Assembly (NCBI GenBank): GCA_017394205.1
Contig: JAFOPS010000036.1
Location: 1-45,295, forward strand
From: Clostridia bacterium
GTDB taxonomy: Bacteria; Bacillota; Clostridia; Oscillospirales; Butyricicoccaceae
Direction of reading: 5' to 3'
Length of the DNA stretch: 45,295 bases
The position numbers and the translations under genes are program-made. Position 1 is the stretch's first letter, and the number at the start of each line of letters is the position of its first letter. This document shows, one piece after another, positions 1,799 to 45,000 of this stretch. Under the pieces are notes generated by a model. It had not been told where the DNA came from and made no database searches. It saw only the letters and a program-made list of their open reading frames with translations.

Positions 1799-3295
1799 AT
1801 GTCTATGCATGTCATCGCTCTGGATCAGGGCACCACCAGCTCCCGCGCCATCGTCTTTTCCAAAGAGGGGGAGATCGTCAGCCGCGGGCAATATCCCCTT
1901 CCCCAGCACTATCCCGCTCCCGGATGGGTGGAGCATGACCCCATGGAGATCCTCCGGACCCAGCTGATGGCGCTGGCCGAGGCCTATGAGCGGTCGGAGC
2001 TCTCTCCCGCGCAGATCGCCGCCATCGGCGTCACCAACCAGCGGGAGACCACCGTGGTCTGGGAAAAGGACACCGGCATGCCCATCATGAACGCCATCGT
2101 CTGGCAATGCCGCCGCACGGCGGAGGAATGCGAGCGTCTGGTGCAGAGCGGCATCGGCGACTATGTCCGCGAAACCACGGGTCTTTTGATCGACGCATAT
2201 TTTTCCGGCACCAAGATCGCCTGGATCCTGGACCACGTCCCCGGCGCCCGGGCCCGGGCCGAGCGGGGCGAGCTGCTGTGCGGCACGGTGGACAGCTGGC
2301 TCATCTGGACCCTCACCGGCGAGCATGTTTCGGATTATTCCAACTGCTCCCGCACCATGCTTTTTGACATCGACCGGCTGTGCTGGGACGAGGAGCTGTG
2401 CCGGGCGCTGCGGGTGCCCATGCAGATGCTGCCCCGCCCCGTGCCCAACAGCGGCGTTTACGGTTATGTGAAGCCCGGCGTGCGGGGCGTCGAGGCCCTT
2501 CAGGGCATCCCCGTGGCGGGGGCCGCCGGCGATCAGCAGGCCGCCCTGTTCGGGCAGGGCTGCTTTTCTGCGGGACAGGCCAAAAACACCTACGGCACCG
2601 GCTGCTTCACGCTGATGAACACCGGCTCCCGCTCGCTGCGCTCGCAAAGCGGCCTGCTCACCTCGGTGGGCTGGCAGCTCAACGGCGAGACCACCTATGC
2701 GCTGGAGGGCAGCGTTTTCAACGCGGGCTCCACCATCCAGTGGCTGCGGGACGAGTTGGGTCTCATCGGCAGCGCTCACGAGACCGATCTTCTGGCGGAA
2801 TCGGTGCCCGACAACGGCGGAGCCTATCTGGTGTCGGCCTTTACCGGGCTGGGCGCGCCCCATTGGGATATGTATGCCCGGGGGGCCATTCTGGGTCTGA
2901 CCCGCGGCGTTACCCGCGCCCACATCGCCCGCGCGGCGCTGGAGGGCATCGCCTACCAGGTGGCCGATCTGGTGTCCACCATGGAGCAGGATCTGGGCCA
3001 TCCGCTGGAAAGCCTGTGGGTGGACGGCGGCGCCTCGGTGAGCGATTTTATGATGCAGTTCCAGGCCGACCTGCTGCGCTGCTCCATCTATCGCCCCCGC
3101 ATGGTGGAAACCACCGCCGCCGGCGCCGCGTATCTGGCGGGTCTGGCGACGGGCGTATGGAGCGGCACCGATGAAATTCTGAAAAACCGCGCGCTGGAGC
3201 GGGTCTTTGCACCGGAAATGCCTCAGGACGACGCCCGCCGTCTGCTGGATCAGTGGCACAAGGCGGTGCGCCGCACCCTGCGCTGGGCCGAATGA
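1799..3295 (+). CDS. glpK: Glycerol kinase
   Basis: A 498-residue FGGY-family kinase that phosphorylates glycerol with ATP to sn-glycerol 3-phosphate in the cytoplasm. The N-terminal phosphate-binding segment DQGTTSSRAIVF and the TNQRETTVVW segment are diagnostic of GlpK. The second half has YGTGCF, the GLGAPHWDMYARG segment and GGASVSDFMMQFQADLL, as in the family. Length is normal. GGAGGAG precedes the ATG. No glycerol facilitator or glycerol-3-phosphate dehydrogenase is adjacent, so it appears as a stand-alone gene. A near-canonical promoter for the next gene follows directly. Confidence 0.96.
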   Translation: MSMHVIALDQGTTSSRAIVFSKEGEIVSRGQYPLPQHYPAPGWVEHDPMEILRTQLMALAEAYERSELSPAQIAAIGVTNQRETTVVWEKDTGMPIMNAIVWQCRRTAEECERLVQSGIGDYVRETTGLLIDAYFSGTKIAWILDHVPGARARAERGELLCGTVDSWLIWTLTGEHVSDYSNCSRTMLFDIDRLCWDEELCRALRVPMQMLPRPVPNSGVYGYVKPGVRGVEALQGIPVAGAAGDQQAALFGQGCFSAGQAKNTYGTGCFTLMNTGSRSLRSQSGLLTSVGWQLNGETTYALEGSVFNAGSTIQWLRDELGLIGSAHETDLLAESVPDNGGAYLVSAFTGLGAPHWDMYARGAILGLTRGVTRAHIARAALEGIAYQVADLVSTMEQDLGHPLESLWVDGGASVSDFMMQFQADLLRCSIYRPRMVETTAAGAAYLAGLATGVWSGTDEILKNRALERVFAPEMPQDDARRLLDQWHKAVRRTLRWAE

Positions 3296-3302
3296 CCGTC
3301 GG

Positions 3303-3331
3303 TTGACAAGGCGGCCGGGAGCGCCTATACT
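3303..3331 (+). promoter_or_regulatory. Sigma-A promoter of the flippase gene
   Basis: TTGACA and TATACT are separated by exactly 17 bases, 35 bases before the start codon of the flippase gene. Confidence 0.8.
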
Positions 3332-3365
3332 GAAACTCGAATAACCTCTGACAGGGGGACCGTCC

Positions 3366-5006
3366 ATGAAGCAGCGCCAATCCACCTTTATGACCAGCGT
3401 GGCTGCGATCTTCAGCTCGCAGCTTCTCATCAAGCTGATCGGTTTTCTTTATAATATCGTTCTGATGAACATCCCCGGCTTCGGGGATCTGGGCAACGGC
3501 TACCGCACGGCAGGCTATCAGATCTATACCGTTCTGCTGGCGATCTCGTCGGTGGGCATCCCCAACGCCATCTCCAAGCTGATCTCCGAGCGGCTGGCGC
3601 TCAAGGACGAGGAGGGCGCGGAGCACGTGTTCCGCACGGCGCTGCGGCTGTTCGCCGTCATCGGCGCCGCCGCCTCGCTGCTGCTCTTCGTCGGCGCGGA
3701 GTTCCTGGCCACCAAGGTCATCCGCATCTCGGGGGTGGAGCTGACGCTGCGGGCGCTGTCGCCCTCGATCTTCTTCGTGTGCGTCAGTTCGGTGATGCGG
3801 GGCTATTTTCTGGGCCACCGCAACGTCCATCCCAGCAATCGCTCGCAGATCCTGGAGCAGATCTTCAAGGCCACCCTCACCGTCCTCTTCGTCTGGCTGC
3901 TCACCGAGACCTCGGCCTTGATCATGGCGGTGGGCGCCAACGGCGCCACCTCGGTGTCCACGGCGGTGAGCTTCCTCTATCTGGCGGTCACGCTGATCCT
4001 TTACCGCCGCCGCAATCCCGCGACGCCGGCGTCGCGGCCGGAGAGCGGAGAGCGCCGCGGCCTGATCCGCAAGATCCTGTCGCTCTCCATCCCCATCTCT
4101 CTCAGCTCCATCATCACCTCCGTGGCCCGGGTCATCGACACGGCCACCATCTCCCGGGGCATTTCCAAGGCCTTTGCCTCCGGCATCCCCGGGCAGGAGG
4201 GCATCCCCACGCAGGAGGCGCTGGAAAAATACGCCGCTCTGCTTTCGGGACGGTTTTTCAAGGCGGACAACATCACCAACATCGTGCTGGCCCTCAACAT
4301 CGCCTTTGCCACCGTTCTGGTGCCCACCATCGCCGCGGCGCTGGCCGTGGGCGACAAAAAGACCGCCTCCCGCCGGATCTCCTCCTCGTTCCTTTTGTCC
4401 ATCCTCATCGTCCTGCCCTGCTCCATGGGGCTGATCCTGCTGGCGGAGCCCTTCTTCAAGCTGGTCTATCCCGCCGCCTCCCAGGGAGCCGACCTGATGC
4501 AGTGGGCGGCGGTGGCCCTCATCTTCACCGCGCTGGACCAGACCATCTGCGGCAGTCTGCAGGGGCTGGGGCGGGTCTATGTTCCCGCCGTGGGCCTGCT
4601 GTGCGGCGCGGCGGTGAAATACGTCCTCAACCGCATCCTCATCCCCATCCCCACCGTGGGCATCTACGGCGCCGCCGTTTCGTCGGTGGCCTGCCACCTC
4701 ACGGCCTTTATCATCTGCTTCGCGGCTCTGCGGCGATCTATCCCCATGAAGCTCAATTTCAGCCGCTATGTGATCAAGCCCGTGCTGTGCACGGCGGTGA
4801 TGTCGCTGGTGACCTGGGGAAGCTACCGGCTGTGCATGCTGGTGCTCCATTCCAATCTGGTGTCGCTGGCGGCGTCCGTCCTGCTTTCGGTGGCCGTATA
4901 CGTTGTCTGCGTCTTTACGCTGCACATCCTCTCGCCCTCGCAGATCCGGGAGCTCCCCGCCGGCGATGCAATCCTGCTTTGGCTCGGCGGTTCTGCGCGG
5001 GGATAA
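3366..5006 (+). CDS. MOP-superfamily flippase, SpoVB/MurJ-like (polysaccharide biosynthesis type)
   Basis: A 546-residue integral membrane protein with about fourteen hydrophobic helices and an N-terminal segment (SVAAIFSSQLLIKLIGFLYN) typical of the SpoVB/PST group of the MOP exporters. Members flip lipid-linked oligosaccharides; in Firmicutes several paralogues act as lipid II flippases or in spore cortex formation. A charged stretch near residues 210-235 and a cytoplasmic loop near residues 275-300 break the helices into two bundles, as in the family. It has its own strong promoter and the Shine-Dalgarno sequence AGGGGG. Which lipid-linked substrate it carries cannot be read from the sequence. 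Confidence 0.88.
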   Translation: MKQRQSTFMTSVAAIFSSQLLIKLIGFLYNIVLMNIPGFGDLGNGYRTAGYQIYTVLLAISSVGIPNAISKLISERLALKDEEGAEHVFRTALRLFAVIGAAASLLLFVGAEFLATKVIRISGVELTLRALSPSIFFVCVSSVMRGYFLGHRNVHPSNRSQILEQIFKATLTVLFVWLLTETSALIMAVGANGATSVSTAVSFLYLAVTLILYRRRNPATPASRPESGERRGLIRKILSLSIPISLSSIITSVARVIDTATISRGISKAFASGIPGQEGIPTQEALEKYAALLSGRFFKADNITNIVLALNIAFATVLVPTIAAALAVGDKKTASRRISSSFLLSILIVLPCSMGLILLAEPFFKLVYPAASQGADLMQWAAVALIFTALDQTICGSLQGLGRVYVPAVGLLCGAAVKYVLNRILIPIPTVGIYGAAVSSVACHLTAFIICFAALRRSIPMKLNFSRYVIKPVLCTAVMSLVTWGSYRLCMLVLHSNLVSLAASVLLSVAVYVVCVFTLHILSPSQIRELPAGDAILLWLGGSARG

Positions 5007-41360: not shown

Positions 41361-41449
41361 GGAGAGTTATCGAAGTGGTCATAACGAGCCTGACTCGAAA
41401 TCAGGTGTACCTCACGGTACCGTGGGTTCGAATCCCACACTCTCCGCCA
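41361..41449 (+). tRNA. tRNA-Ser (anticodon CGA), CCA encoded
   Basis: A complete 89-base serine tRNA including CCA. The acceptor stem is GGAGAGT with ACTCTCC; the anticodon stem is CCTGA with TCAGG around CTCGAAA (anticodon CGA). A long variable arm and the T-arm GTGGG-TTCGAAT-CCCAC are present. It marks the left boundary of the integrated element whose integrase gene is 200 bases away. Confidence 0.97.
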
Positions 41450-41654: not shown

Positions 41655-42824
41655 TTAGTTGATGGCACTCAGTGCGCCTTTCAGCCCGTTCACCATTGCA
41701 TCGGCAGAGGACAGTTTGGAGTTGTAGTCCAGATGTGCATAGACATTGGCTGTGGTCGAGAAGTCGCTGTGGCCAAGCCACTCCTGGATCTGCTTCATCG
41801 GCACTCCATTGGCAAGCAGCAGCGATGCGCAGCTATGCCGGAGGTCGTGGAAACGGATTCTGCGAAGGCCGTTCTTCTCAAGAAGCTTCGGAAACGCCGA
41901 GGTCAGATAGTGCGGAGAGATCAGAGTACCCATTTCGTCAACACAGATATAATCTGTATAACGCTTGTCGTAGCATTTTCCGCACACGCGGCGATATTCC
42001 TTCTGCTCCTCCTGCAGCTTCAAAAGCTTCTCCTTAAACACAGGCACGAGAGGCAGCGTCCGCATGCTGGACTTGGTTTTCGTGGTATCCTGAGCAAGCT
42101 GAACGTGTTTTCCGTCGATGGTGCAGGTAGTAACGGTATGGCGGATCGTGATGGTGTTGTTATCAAAATCAATGGCGCTCCACTTCAAGCCAAGAGCTTC
42201 ACTTCTGCGAAGTCCATAAAATGCGCCGAGGAAAACCGGGATTTCCAGCTTCGTCCCCTTGGCGGCTTCAAAGAGTTCCTGGACTTCTTTACTGTCATAG
42301 AAGCTGCCAACGAAATGGTCTTTCTTCGGGCGCTCGATCTTGTCAGCAGGGTTGGAATCAATCAGCTCGATCTTAACAGCATATTTCAGGGCCTTATGGA
42401 TGTTCGCGTGATAGTGGATAACTGAGTTGGCCTTGACCCGCTTCAGTTGCTCCATATAGAAAGCCTGAATATCGGTTGCCTTCAGGTCTCTGAGCATAAT
42501 TCCACGCTGCTTGAAATACGGAACAACTACGCCTTTAACCATATTCGAATAAGAGGAATAGGTTGTCACCGCGATGGTCGGCCTTACAATCTCAAGCCAT
42601 CGAAGCATGAAATCGGAAAAGAGCATGTCGTCCGAGGGAGTGAGAACTTCTGGTACTTCGAAGCTGTTTCGGAGTTCCATCAGCATCTTCTCGGCCTTTT
42701 TCTTGTTCCCTTTCACGGGGAGTCCGGTGGAAGTCCATTTTGTCTTGCGCTTCCCGTTTTGATCGTGGTAACTGATAACCATATAATAGATTCCGCTTTT
42801 TTCTTGCAGATGTCCTGCTACCAT
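41655..42824 (-). CDS. int: Tyrosine recombinase / integrase
   Basis: A 389-residue phage-type integrase. The N-terminal Arm-binding domain lies at about 1-60 and the core-binding (SAM-like) domain at about 66-160. The catalytic domain (about 175-375) has R206 in YGLRRSEALGL, lysine in KTKSSMRTLPL, H326 and R329 in FHDLRHSCAS, H352 in LGHSD and the nucleophile Y362 in VYAHLD. A zinc-like pair CGKC is at 281-284. The start follows AAGGAGG with nine-base spacing. It would integrate the element at the adjacent tRNA-Ser. Confidence 0.95.
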   Translation of the reverse strand: MVAGHLQEKSGIYYMVISYHDQNGKRKTKWTSTGLPVKGNKKKAEKMLMELRNSFEVPEVLTPSDDMLFSDFMLRWLEIVRPTIAVTTYSSYSNMVKGVVVPYFKQRGIMLRDLKATDIQAFYMEQLKRVKANSVIHYHANIHKALKYAVKIELIDSNPADKIERPKKDHFVGSFYDSKEVQELFEAAKGTKLEIPVFLGAFYGLRRSEALGLKWSAIDFDNNTITIRHTVTTCTIDGKHVQLAQDTTKTKSSMRTLPLVPVFKEKLLKLQEEQKEYRRVCGKCYDKRYTDYICVDEMGTLISPHYLTSAFPKLLEKNGLRRIRFHDLRHSCASLLLANGVPMKQIQEWLGHSDFSTTANVYAHLDYNSKLSSADAMVNGLKGALSAIN

Positions 42825-42849
42825 TGAATCATACCTCCTTATGTAGCAA

Positions 42850-42907
42850 ATTGGACTTCTGCTGTTGACCATCTCCATTGTAGGGGATGGTTCTGCAAAA
42901 GTCCAAT
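42850..42907. promoter_or_regulatory. Two-part stem-loop between xis and int
   Basis: ATTGGACTT (42850-42858) pairs with AAGTCCAAT (42899-42907), and inside it ACCATCTCC pairs with GGGGATGGT with one mismatch. There is no T-run. On the minus strand it lies in the 93-base leader between the xis stop and the int ribosome site. It may control int expression or be an integrase/excisionase binding site. Confidence 0.65.
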
Positions 42908-42917
42908 GTGCGAAAAG

Positions 42918-43142
42918 CTAATTTGCGCTATCGCAGACGAACACCCTCATATAAGTCAGCAAATGTGCTTTCGGGATGCGATAGCTGCGGCCTATCTTCA
43001 TATGGCCGATTTTATTCTCCTTGATGATCCGATAGCCGGTCTTCGTGCTTATGCTTAAAGCATCGCACATTTCCTCAACGGAGAGAACATCGGGATAGTC
43101 CTTTAGAACAGATGCGTAGACTTCATTAAATGCCATTTTCAT
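42918..43142 (-). CDS. xis: Excisionase-type helix-turn-helix protein
   Basis: A 74-residue protein with an AlpA/excisionase-like HTH: VLSVEEMCDALSISTKTGYR followed by the wing KIGHMKIGRSYRIPKAHLL. Such proteins bend DNA and direct integrase to excise the element. It overlaps the mazF-like gene by 17 bases and precedes int, so the three are co-transcribed. The start could be the second ATG two codons later. Confidence 0.87.
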   Translation of the reverse strand: MKMAFNEVYASVLKDYPDVLSVEEMCDALSISTKTGYRIIKENKIGHMKIGRSYRIPKAHLLTYMRVFVCDSAN

Positions 43143-43707
43143 CAGCCCTCTGCAATCTTCGCTTCCTCTTATCCACCTTCTTGATCAGGTAATCATACCC
43201 TTGCCGCACCTGGCAGTAAGCACAATCGTCCTTCAAATCTCGAAGAGGATCAACGCGGCGGATGATATGGTCAGGAGAGTTATAAAACTGAGCTGCACAG
43301 GTCGGGCAAAGGCAGAGCGTCATCTCATCCGGGTGATCTTCCGTGCTTGGGTCATCCAGCGCAAGACTGATGCCGAGAGCACCGTCCACATAGTCCATGA
43401 TTTCATCATCCAGGGCTGCAATATAATTGGACAGCCTGGACTTGTCTATGGTACGCACCTGCTCCAAAAGCACCATGGAGTTTGCCGGCAGGCCAATATC
43501 CCTCGGCAAGCCGACATGCGTGGGCAGAGCGTTCTTTTTAAGCTTGCTGGTGATCGGTGCGATGATGACTGTAGGACTGTGCCTGTTTCCGATATTGTTC
43601 TGAATCACAAGCACAGGTCGCAAGCCGCCCTGCTCACTGCCCCGAACCGGATTCAGGTCAGCAAAAAATATGTCTCCTCTTCTGATCTCGTTCGGCTGTT
43701 TTGTCAT
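43126..43707 (-). CDS. MazF/PemK-family protein with C-terminal zinc ribbon
   Basis: A 193-residue protein. Residues 1 to about 115 are MazF-like: RRGDIFFADLNPVRGSEQGGLRPVLVIQN, then IIAPITSK and the ANSMVLLEQVRTIDKSRL segment. The residues equivalent to the catalytic arginine and threonine of MazF appear to be R30 and T53. The C-terminal part has CLCPTC (132-137) and CAYC (162-165), a likely zinc ribbon, then a basic tail. MazF proteins are mRNA endonucleases, but no antitoxin gene is adjacent. The start is the ATG after GAGGTG. Confidence 0.85.
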   Translation of the reverse strand: MTKQPNEIRRGDIFFADLNPVRGSEQGGLRPVLVIQNNIGNRHSPTVIIAPITSKLKKNALPTHVGLPRDIGLPANSMVLLEQVRTIDKSRLSNYIAALDDEIMDYVDGALGISLALDDPSTEDHPDEMTLCLCPTCAAQFYNSPDHIIRRVDPLRDLKDDCAYCQVRQGYDYLIKKVDKRKRRLQRADENGI

Positions 43708-43731
43708 GGGACACCTCTTTTTCAAGAATTG

Positions 43732-44194
43732 CCTTGAAGAATTGAATACTCATTCTCCCCGAATGGCGTGCTATGTACGCTCAGACGAAGACGATGTAAC
43801 ACGACCCATTCATCTTTCTCCTCGCCGTTGTCGAACAACGCCTGAGCATGTAAAGCACACCATTTGTCCTCGACACCCCGTGTGCGGGTGGATTGAACCA
43901 CCGGGAAGTCGCTAAGCGGCAGCTTGCTGGACTGCCTCACGGGAGTTTCACCCCAACTGTCGTTCGGACAGAGCCGCCCCCATTGCGTGATCCCGCTTAC
44001 GCGGGGCTGTGGCTGGACGGGAGTACCATTGTCATTCCGGCTGTCATCGCCATGCCAGGGGCAACCCGGCACTTGCAGCAGGTTATCTCGCTCACCTCTT
44101 TTCAGAGGGTCACGGCGTACCAGACTGTCGTGGCTCACGCTTTCGCGCATCGTCGGAACTGAAGTCTTAGCGAATGAGTATTCTTTTTTCAAGG
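43732..44194 (-). ncRNA. Candidate large structured RNA (or TIR-flanked element)
   Basis: The ends carry a 12-bp perfect inverted repeat (GAATACTCATTC at 43744-43755 and its complement at 44172-44183) with a matching CCTTGAA further out. On the minus strand further helices nest in order: CGCTAAGAC with GTCTGAGCG, GACGATG with CATCGTC, CACGAC with GTCGTG, CGCCGT with ACGGCG. Local hairpins include CGC-GAAA-GCG, CCTCT-GAAA-AGAGG, CCCGC-GTAA-GCGGG, CTGTC-CGAAC-GACAG and GGTGG-TTCAAT-CCACC (a T-loop-like hairpin). A 156-codon open frame (TTG start, no ribosome site) crosses it but looks unlike a protein. I recognise no known RNA class. Confidence 0.5.
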
Positions 44195-44240
44195 TAGGAG
44201 AGGAATTGTCCTCTCACCCTTCTATTGCGACATTTTTTGC

Positions 44241-44810
44241 TTAAAACGAAACCCCAGCGAGAAATTTTTTTGTAAAGCTTTCAAAAGAGCGCTTGTATTC
44301 TCTAACTCTCTGATGGGAAACCTGATATTTTGTAGCGATGAACCCTGTGCAGGATCGCTTTTCACCGTTCAGATAGAACTGAAGCATTTCCTCTGCCCAT
44401 GGTTTCCACCGCCTCAAAGCTAATCGGAGTTCAGTCAAAAGAATGGTATCAATTGCTGTTTCCTCAACACACACGCGGTCATCACCAACGCACTCATGAC
44501 GGGAGGTAACCTCTGCATCCTCGACCTCAGCGTCAAGTGAGAGAATTTCAAATTCAGGTACTAATTGCCCATTACGTTCTTTTGCTTTCTCTTGAGTTCT
44601 CCACGCGGTATACTCTTTTTTTGATACTTCAATTTGCATGACATCTAAGTCGTCGCCGTCCGGAATAATGTCCTTAATGAAATACCGCTTTTGTTCATCC
44701 AGCAGTTCATTACTTTTTTGAGTGATTGCATACCACTCCGCACCGGACACCTCGACAAGTTTTGATTTCTGATCCATGGGATTGCTTCTAACAAGGAAAG
44801 TCCTTTTCAT
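44241..44810 (-). CDS. Element-borne protein with C-terminal sigma-like HTH
   Basis: A 189-residue protein without a firm family. The N-terminal half is acidic and mixed (residues 1-110). The C-terminal third (about 120-175) reads like a sigma-70 region 4-type HTH: ILLTELRLALRRWKPWAEEM, then CTGFIATKYQVSHQRVREYK. Similar short sigma-like proteins are common in Clostridia integrative elements and probably regulate transfer or maintenance genes. The start is the ATG after AAGGA; both lie inside a strong hairpin (44808-44854). Confidence 0.68.
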   Translation of the reverse strand: MKRTFLVRSNPMDQKSKLVEVSGAEWYAITQKSNELLDEQKRYFIKDIIPDGDDLDVMQIEVSKKEYTAWRTQEKAKERNGQLVPEFEILSLDAEVEDAEVTSRHECVGDDRVCVEETAIDTILLTELRLALRRWKPWAEEMLQFYLNGEKRSCTGFIATKYQVSHQRVREYKRSFESFTKKFLAGVSF

Positions 44811-44854
44811 GTGATTCCTTTCCGCCTGGATGCGGAAGGCGAAGAAATCACATG
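44808..44854 (-). promoter_or_regulatory. Start-codon and Shine-Dalgarno sequestering hairpin
   Basis: On the minus strand CATGTGATTTCTT pairs with AAGGAATCACATG (12 canonical pairs plus one G-T), and TCCGC pairs with GCGGA above a five-base bulge, with loop ATCCAG. The right arm contains the AAGGA ribosome site and the ATG start of the sigma-like gene, so translation should be blocked when the stem forms. Confidence 0.8.
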
Positions 44855-44903
44855 ACAGAAAACGAAGCGGATCTGCCTGAAGTACACGCAGACCCGCTAT
44901 AGC

Positions 44904-45000
44904 GCCTGATTTGGGCACAGGGTATCATTGGGTACTTCCCACGGAACACCATTGGAAAAGTCCCGTGTCTATGTATCCTTCGCCCTATTGCAAATCAGGC
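44904..45000. promoter_or_regulatory. Nested inverted repeats in the leader of the sigma-like gene
   Basis: GCCTGATTTG (44904-44913) and CAAATCAGGC (44991-45000) are perfect 10-bp arms. CACGG and CCGTG pair inside them. This would fold the leader RNA upstream of the sequestering hairpin. Confidence 0.55.

Follow-up and report, generated by a model that had tools for sequence, protein, structure and literature searches.

What is the large RNA that lies between the regulator and recombination genes of this clostridial integrative element, and what might it do there? The window, by which we mean the whole stretch of 45,295 nt from a Butyricicoccaceae genome that was analysed here, carries a segment that a first-pass annotation had described as a large structured RNA on the minus strand (43732-44194). 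The RNA and its strand held up, while the 3′ end had been misplaced: the conserved part, ~340 nt long, extends from 44196 to 43855. We argue that this RNA is very probably a processive antiterminator of the canT type, known from Tn916, which would serve the integrative and conjugative element and whose core is the pemK RNA.

The locus and its noncoding segment

On the minus strand, a gene in the sigma-like position is followed by the RNA, a PemK/MazF gene, an excisionase-like gene and a tyrosine integrase gene, with tRNA-Ser alongside (Table 1). The original placement of the segment in a tRNA-Ser element, between sigma-like and MazF/PemK genes, is thus borne out, if with a weak sigma match for the former. 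The element is visible up to the contig end at 45295, beyond which its other end, the promoter and a T1-like terminator would lie. No antitoxin gene evidently adjoins the PemK/MazF-like toxin gene, which is flanked by the RNA on one side and the excisionase gene on the other.

A 156-codon frame crosses the segment and had been judged to be noncoding. Its homologues agree with this, displaying frameshifting gaps, in-frame stops and mismatches over all codon positions, and the protein-coding reading was rejected on these grounds. The segment folds better than its dinucleotide shuffles (z -4.1, 0/100), and the opposite strand does so equally well (z -4.0). Because both strands score alike, the MFE z-score cannot reveal the strand of the RNA, and we discarded it as strand evidence.

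A member of the pemK RNA family

The segment had been annotated without assignment to a known RNA class, and cmscan places it in a known family: the pemK RNA, RF02913, matches over the full model (1-61) at 44032-43937 on the minus strand, with 44.5 bits compared to a gathering score of 34.8. At E<=1 this is the only Rfam match of the window RNA, in agreement with the earlier statement that it is not GOLLD, ROOL or HEARO. With a score above the gathering cutoff and a pemK gene downstream, the window RNA is, judged by its sequence, a new member of an already catalogued Rfam family, even though two conserved bases of its core are not those of the consensus (ACAAUGGUAC vs AUAAUGAUAC). The motif was reportedly first described by Weinberg and others in 2017.

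RF02913 was detected in about a third (121 of 391) of the genomes sampled from the window's class, whereas 14 control genomes had no hit. At least 118 stretches in a species-level genome collection contain an exact match to a 26-base core pattern, with titles that include Lachnospiraceae, Ruminococcus, Paenibacillus and Desulfosporosinus. A phage origin of the RNA was considered and rejected, since no phage sequence matched the window RNA by BLAST and, of 2.9 million viral contigs, just 2 contain the core pattern; plasmids likewise gave no BLAST match.

Architecture and covariation

Around 110 loci were read around the RF02913 core to define the larger RNA, and comparison of homologues shows that the 61-position Rfam model covers only the middle of the ~340-nt conserved RNA. 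From 5′ to 3′, the family order is boxA, strands of P1-P3, P4, core, P6, the 3′ strand of P1 and, often, a pseudoknot; the features of the window copy are compiled in Table 1. Family-wide, the internal loop of P3 reads CGCCATGACC ... GAGCGA, and the 3′ pseudoknot, which is of the H-type and was found in 29 loci, contains either the loop GGGGTGTCGAGGACAAAT or a GGGAAGTAGTGTCGAAT variant of it. The hairpins previously noted on the minus strand, with GAAA and GTAA loops as well as a T-loop-like sequence, are all present.

Table 1. Features of the RNA and of the surrounding genes in the window
Feature	Position	Strand	Remarks
boxA-like motif TACCTTGAAAAAAGAATA	44179..44196	-	RNA 5′ end; family consensus TTCTTTGAAAACTGAATA
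P1 5′ strand CGCTAAG	44166..44172	-	covariation; pairing probability 0.89-0.96
P1 3′ strand CTTAGCG	43910..43916	-	covariation; pairs with 44172-44166
P2 5′ strand TTCCG	44154..44158	-	family covariation; low probability in single-sequence fold
P2 3′ strand CGGAA	44035..44039	-	just 5′ of core; covariation
P3 domain	44076..44127	-	strands 44127-44120 / 44082-44076; conserved motifs and covariation
P3 conserved internal loop	TACGCCGTGACC 44119-44108 / TGAGCGA 44094-44088	-	conserved motifs
P3a hairpin	44108-44095	-	inside P3 domain
P4 hairpin	44052..44072	-	loop UUGC 44064-44061, predicted half of kissing loop
Conserved GGCGATGAC	44043..44051	-	directly after P4
pemK RNA core (RF02913)	43937..44032	-	first bases align with canT(S3) mutation site of Tn916
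P6 hairpin	43918..43936	-	loop GCAA 43927-43924, predicted second half of kissing loop
3′ pseudoknot	43855..43908	-	CCC 43905-43903 with GGG in 43879-43876
Pseudoknot stem	43885-43880/43860-43855	-	stem probability 0.94-0.96
Pseudoknot conserved loop GGGGTGTCGAGGACAAAT	43879-43862	-	motif and stem present in 29 loci
Hairpin GGTGGTTCAATCCACC, tRNA T-arm-like	43887..43902	-	inserted in pseudoknot; absent from many homologues
Linker, RNA to pemK gene	43726..43854	-	complementary to boxA/P1/P2/P3 5′ strands in this copy, not family-wide
Sigma-like-position gene	44241..44918	-	upstream of RNA; very weak sigma match (E 0.017)
PemK/MazF-like toxin gene	43126..43725	-	Pfam PF02452, E 1.5e-33; NCBIfam; likely start ATG at 43707
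Excisionase-like HTH gene	42918..43142	-	PF12728; TIGR01764
Tyrosine integrase of element	41655..42878	-	PF00589, E 3e-26; adjoins tRNA-Ser
tRNA-Ser	41361-41449	+	beside integrase gene

A single-sequence fold of the window predicts P1, P4, P6 and the pseudoknot stem and misses P2, and a MAFFT/RNAalifold consensus of eight loci supports only P3a, P4, P6 and pseudoknot S1. As this consensus aligned the variable domains poorly, we resorted to permutation tests on anchored windows of dereplicated loci, in which the mean duplex energies of within-locus pairing are compared with those of between-locus pairing. All three nested helices pair far better within than between loci: P1 at -14.35 vs -8.56 (z -15.7), P2 at -13.27 vs -8.46 (z -13.7) and P3 at -9.64 vs -6.58 (z -9.3). 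Control windows ranged from z -1.9 to 0.7, apart from one at -4.2, which takes in parts of the P1 strands. Complementarity and covariation were also seen between the P4 and P6 loops (z 8.0; 0/20,000 permutations), with UUGC/GCAA (the pair of the window), UUAGC/GCUAA, UGGC/GCCA, UGGU/ACCA and others among the combinations observed. P1, P2, P3 and the loop-loop contact thus covary strongly, and the P4 and P6 loops are predicted to form a kissing loop.

Four loci (L004, L013 of genome G041, L046 and L089) harbour shortened RNAs devoid of the P3/P4 domain that have kept the boxA-like motif and the core, suggesting a minimal functional form.

Pairing between the 5′ domain and the 3′ linker

The fold originally proposed was a different one, in which the two ends pair over 12 bases and further helices nest inside. 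The end pair exists (44183-44172/43755-43744, minus strand); it joins the end of boxA and the bases that follow to the linker near pemK and is compatible with P1. The sequences of the four nested helices (CGCTAAGAC/GTCTGAGCG, GACGATG/CATCGTC, CACGAC/GTCGTG and CGCCGT/ACGGCG) are likewise present. They pair the 5′ domain with the linker at 43828-43778, however, are not a feature of the family, and compete with P1-P3, the helices that are conserved and covary. When the complementarity between the 5′ 100 nt of the RNA and its 3′ linker was scored against shuffles for 53 loci, this copy stood out, in line with the view that its helices exceed chance (z -3.1, 0/100), while the family did not (median z -0.26), and the end-to-end fold was consequently rejected as a family feature.

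Could the linker of this copy, by base-pairing to boxA and to the 5′ halves of P1-P3, serve as an off-switch for the antiterminator? The score of the window would fit, and five further loci (L055, L069, L049, L062 and L098) also show significant linker pairing, at different sites, meaning that such a switch possibly arose more than once. We nevertheless deem it improbable given the family median, the variation of the paired regions between loci, and the fact that the linker is transcribed only after the RNA would have bound polymerase. The complementarity is copy-specific, and may be regulatory or may be due to chance.

A boxA-like motif at the 5′ end

A boxA motif precedes the core, mostly by 130-265 nt. 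It scores >14 in 80% of 110 loci, whereas shuffles reach this score in 1.5% of cases and control regions nearby in about 3%; as these loci also served to train the motif, the contrast is somewhat optimistic. The window's own boxA is imperfect (score 22.6 vs a best of 27.0). The consensus, TTCTTTGAAAACTGAATA, is similar to boxA sequences from Firmicute rRNA operons, and genome G294 contains a near-identical TACCTTGAGAACTGAATA between its 16S and 23S rRNA genes; the comparison rests on that genome because the motif pattern found no rRNA boxA copy in the window's own. The motif may recruit NusB-S10 (NusE).

Two further occurrences of such motifs deserve mention. The window's genome contains the 5′ part of the RNA once more (L012:1501-1615, corresponding to G000:C70:42940-43054, + strand), 85% identical over 118 nt and with a boxA, AACCTTGAAAACTGAATA, that is better; contig C70 stops just past this copy, short of where its core and downstream genes would be. 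In genome G315, a multi-copy sequence (about 15 sites; L281-L284) carries an rRNA-like boxA, CTCTTTGAAAACTGAACA, away from rRNA. It has no Rfam family match, and its near-identical copies look like an insertion sequence.

The pemK RNA and canT of Tn916

In Tn916, the region between orf8 and xis, canT, acts as a cis-acting, orientation-specific, processive antiterminator, which is most likely an RNA and is needed to express the conjugation genes after excision (PMC11658703, Wirachman and Grossman 2024). It overrides the terminators T1-T3, gatB, rrnB T1/T2 and lambda t0, is inactive in trans, and is active without any other Tn916 gene (PMC11658703). One of our RF02913 loci, L117, shares 99.9% identity with the Tn916-like element of pCF10, and in that element (L159) RF02913 matches at 4254-4354 with 55 bits, between sigma-like/HTH genes and xis.

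We mapped the published constructs onto this sequence using the coordinates in PMC11658703. The tested 452-nt canT fragment corresponds to L159 4097-4548, the inactivating 162-bp deletion to 4200-4361, taking out P4, the core and half of P6, and the inactivating S3 mutation (ATA->TGC) to 4254-4256. S3 therefore swaps the first three bases of the core, and this mutation abolishes terminator override with boxA untouched (PMC11658703). In a 400-bp canT fragment, S3 had little effect (PMC11658703), so the core may matter more in some contexts than in others. The first 4 nt of the 18-nt boxA motif are missing from the 452-nt fragment, implying that an intact boxA may be dispensable. 'orf5', refuted as a gene in PMC11658703, is an antisense frame over the canT RNA. 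The 3′ pseudoknot motif was not found in Tn916.

Together, the position of canT, the RF02913 match within it and the location of S3 in the core make it most likely that the window RNA is of the canT type. The window RNA, too, lies in sense orientation between regulator and recombination genes, and its homology to canT includes the S3 site. The pemK RNA family thus appears to be the same as Tn916 canT, and we infer by analogy that the window copy antiterminates as canT does. The family's entry in Rfam and the antitermination activity of one member, Tn916 canT, are already known; what appears to be new is the identity of pemK RNA and canT at the family level, along with boxA and the kissing loop. 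The authors of the canT study found structure predictions hard to interpret; their paper contains no mention of boxA, and its antiterminator sections mention neither Rfam nor pemK RNA (PMC11658703). In the library of papers that we searched, none joined pemK RNA or RF02913 with canT or antitermination, and none joined boxA and NusB with conjugative transposons.

An alternative that takes its cue from boxA, present in about 80% of the loci and followed by about 300 untranslated bases, is that an rRNA-type leader merely blocks Rho on a long untranslated RNA, the structured part having another job. This is highly unlikely considering that canT overrides intrinsic terminators and that a core mutation kills the override with boxA intact (PMC11658703).

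Gene neighbourhoods across the family

In most of the ~110 loci, the RNA sits between a gene for a sigma-like regulator and a recombination or maintenance gene of the integrative element. Of 63 dereplicated loci, 47 have an upstream gene that matches Sigma70_r4_2 (sigma-70 region 4), and in the loci read the downstream gene has the same orientation as the RNA. Among 85 dereplicated loci, the first downstream gene encodes a large serine recombinase (16), an HTH excisionase-like protein (15), PemK (14), a Tn916-type Xis (9), a SHOCT protein (7), ParA (5), an integrase or others, these Pfam counts being partly overlapping. Of 83 loci, 25 have hairpins resembling intrinsic terminators in the stretch that separates the RNA from the first gene, as opposed to 10.3 expected from shuffles.

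PemK and ToxN have a common fold. RF02913 is typed as Cis-reg in Rfam and PemK is directly next in the window, so one might suspect a cis-regulator of the toxin or a type III-style RNA antitoxin. We give this slightly less credence still than the Rho-blocking leader. A type III system would entail constant linkage to a nuclease of the ToxN/PemK fold, which holds for 14 of 85 loci; in the other 71, the next gene is a different one (serine recombinase, Xis, integrase, ParA, small protein or other), loci without PemK retain every structural element, and canT works without other Tn916 genes (PMC11658703). Since PemK comes next in so few loci, the name 'pemK RNA' is misleading.

A new large ornate RNA of the GOLLD/ROOL/HEARO type acting in trans, as size, structure and mobile-element location might suggest, has a next to negligible probability in view of RF02913 as the sole Rfam match, the same-orientation gene downstream in the loci read and the inactivity of canT in trans (PMC11658703).

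A model for terminator read-through in the element

How might a canT-type antiterminator operate in this element? Transcription would start upstream, in or near the sigma-like gene, and the finished RNA would fold into P1-P3, the P4-P6 kissing loop, the core and the 3′ pseudoknot, its precise fold on the polymerase being one that we infer. The folded RNA would remain bound in cis to RNA polymerase, with boxA loading NusB-S10, such that downstream terminators would be ignored. The modified polymerase would then read pemK, xis and int and, after excision of the element to a circle, cross the joined ends into the transfer genes. Tentatively, one may go further and envisage a widespread class of mobile-element antiterminators that couples a host rRNA-type boxA to a kissing-loop RNA, with the rRNA transcription machinery terminator-proofing the whole excised circle and some 3′ linkers, that of the window copy among them, perhaps shutting the RNA off.

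If true, RF02913, known only as a 'cis-regulator near pemK', gains a mechanism, and a single experiment in Tn916 extends to a family carried by 121 of the 391 class genomes sampled. Antitermination could then explain how long operons are expressed through terminators after excision in many integrative elements. The covariation model—P1-P3, kissing loop, pseudoknot and boxA—supplies point mutations that are directly testable.

Relation to known antiterminators

The put RNA of phage HK022, likened here by its description, and the EAR RNA of the B. subtilis eps operon are also cis-acting structured RNA antiterminators; the window RNA differs in that it has no second Rfam match at E<=1. conAn2 of pLS20 is similar in that it is an RNA for processive antitermination where a Gram-positive conjugation operon begins, yet conAn also uses a protein, ConAn1. 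Homology to conAn2 was rejected, as the pLS20 region (1900-4700) has no RF02913 match at E<=10 and no boxA. With the antitermination of rRNA operons, the window RNA shares the boxA sequence, an rRNA-like copy of which forms its 5′ end, but in mobile elements this boxA comes together with a large conserved RNA. The closest relative is canT of Tn916: the gene that follows is xis there rather than pemK, while position, orientation, boxA, P1/P2/P4/P6, the predicted kissing loop and the RF02913 core are common to both.
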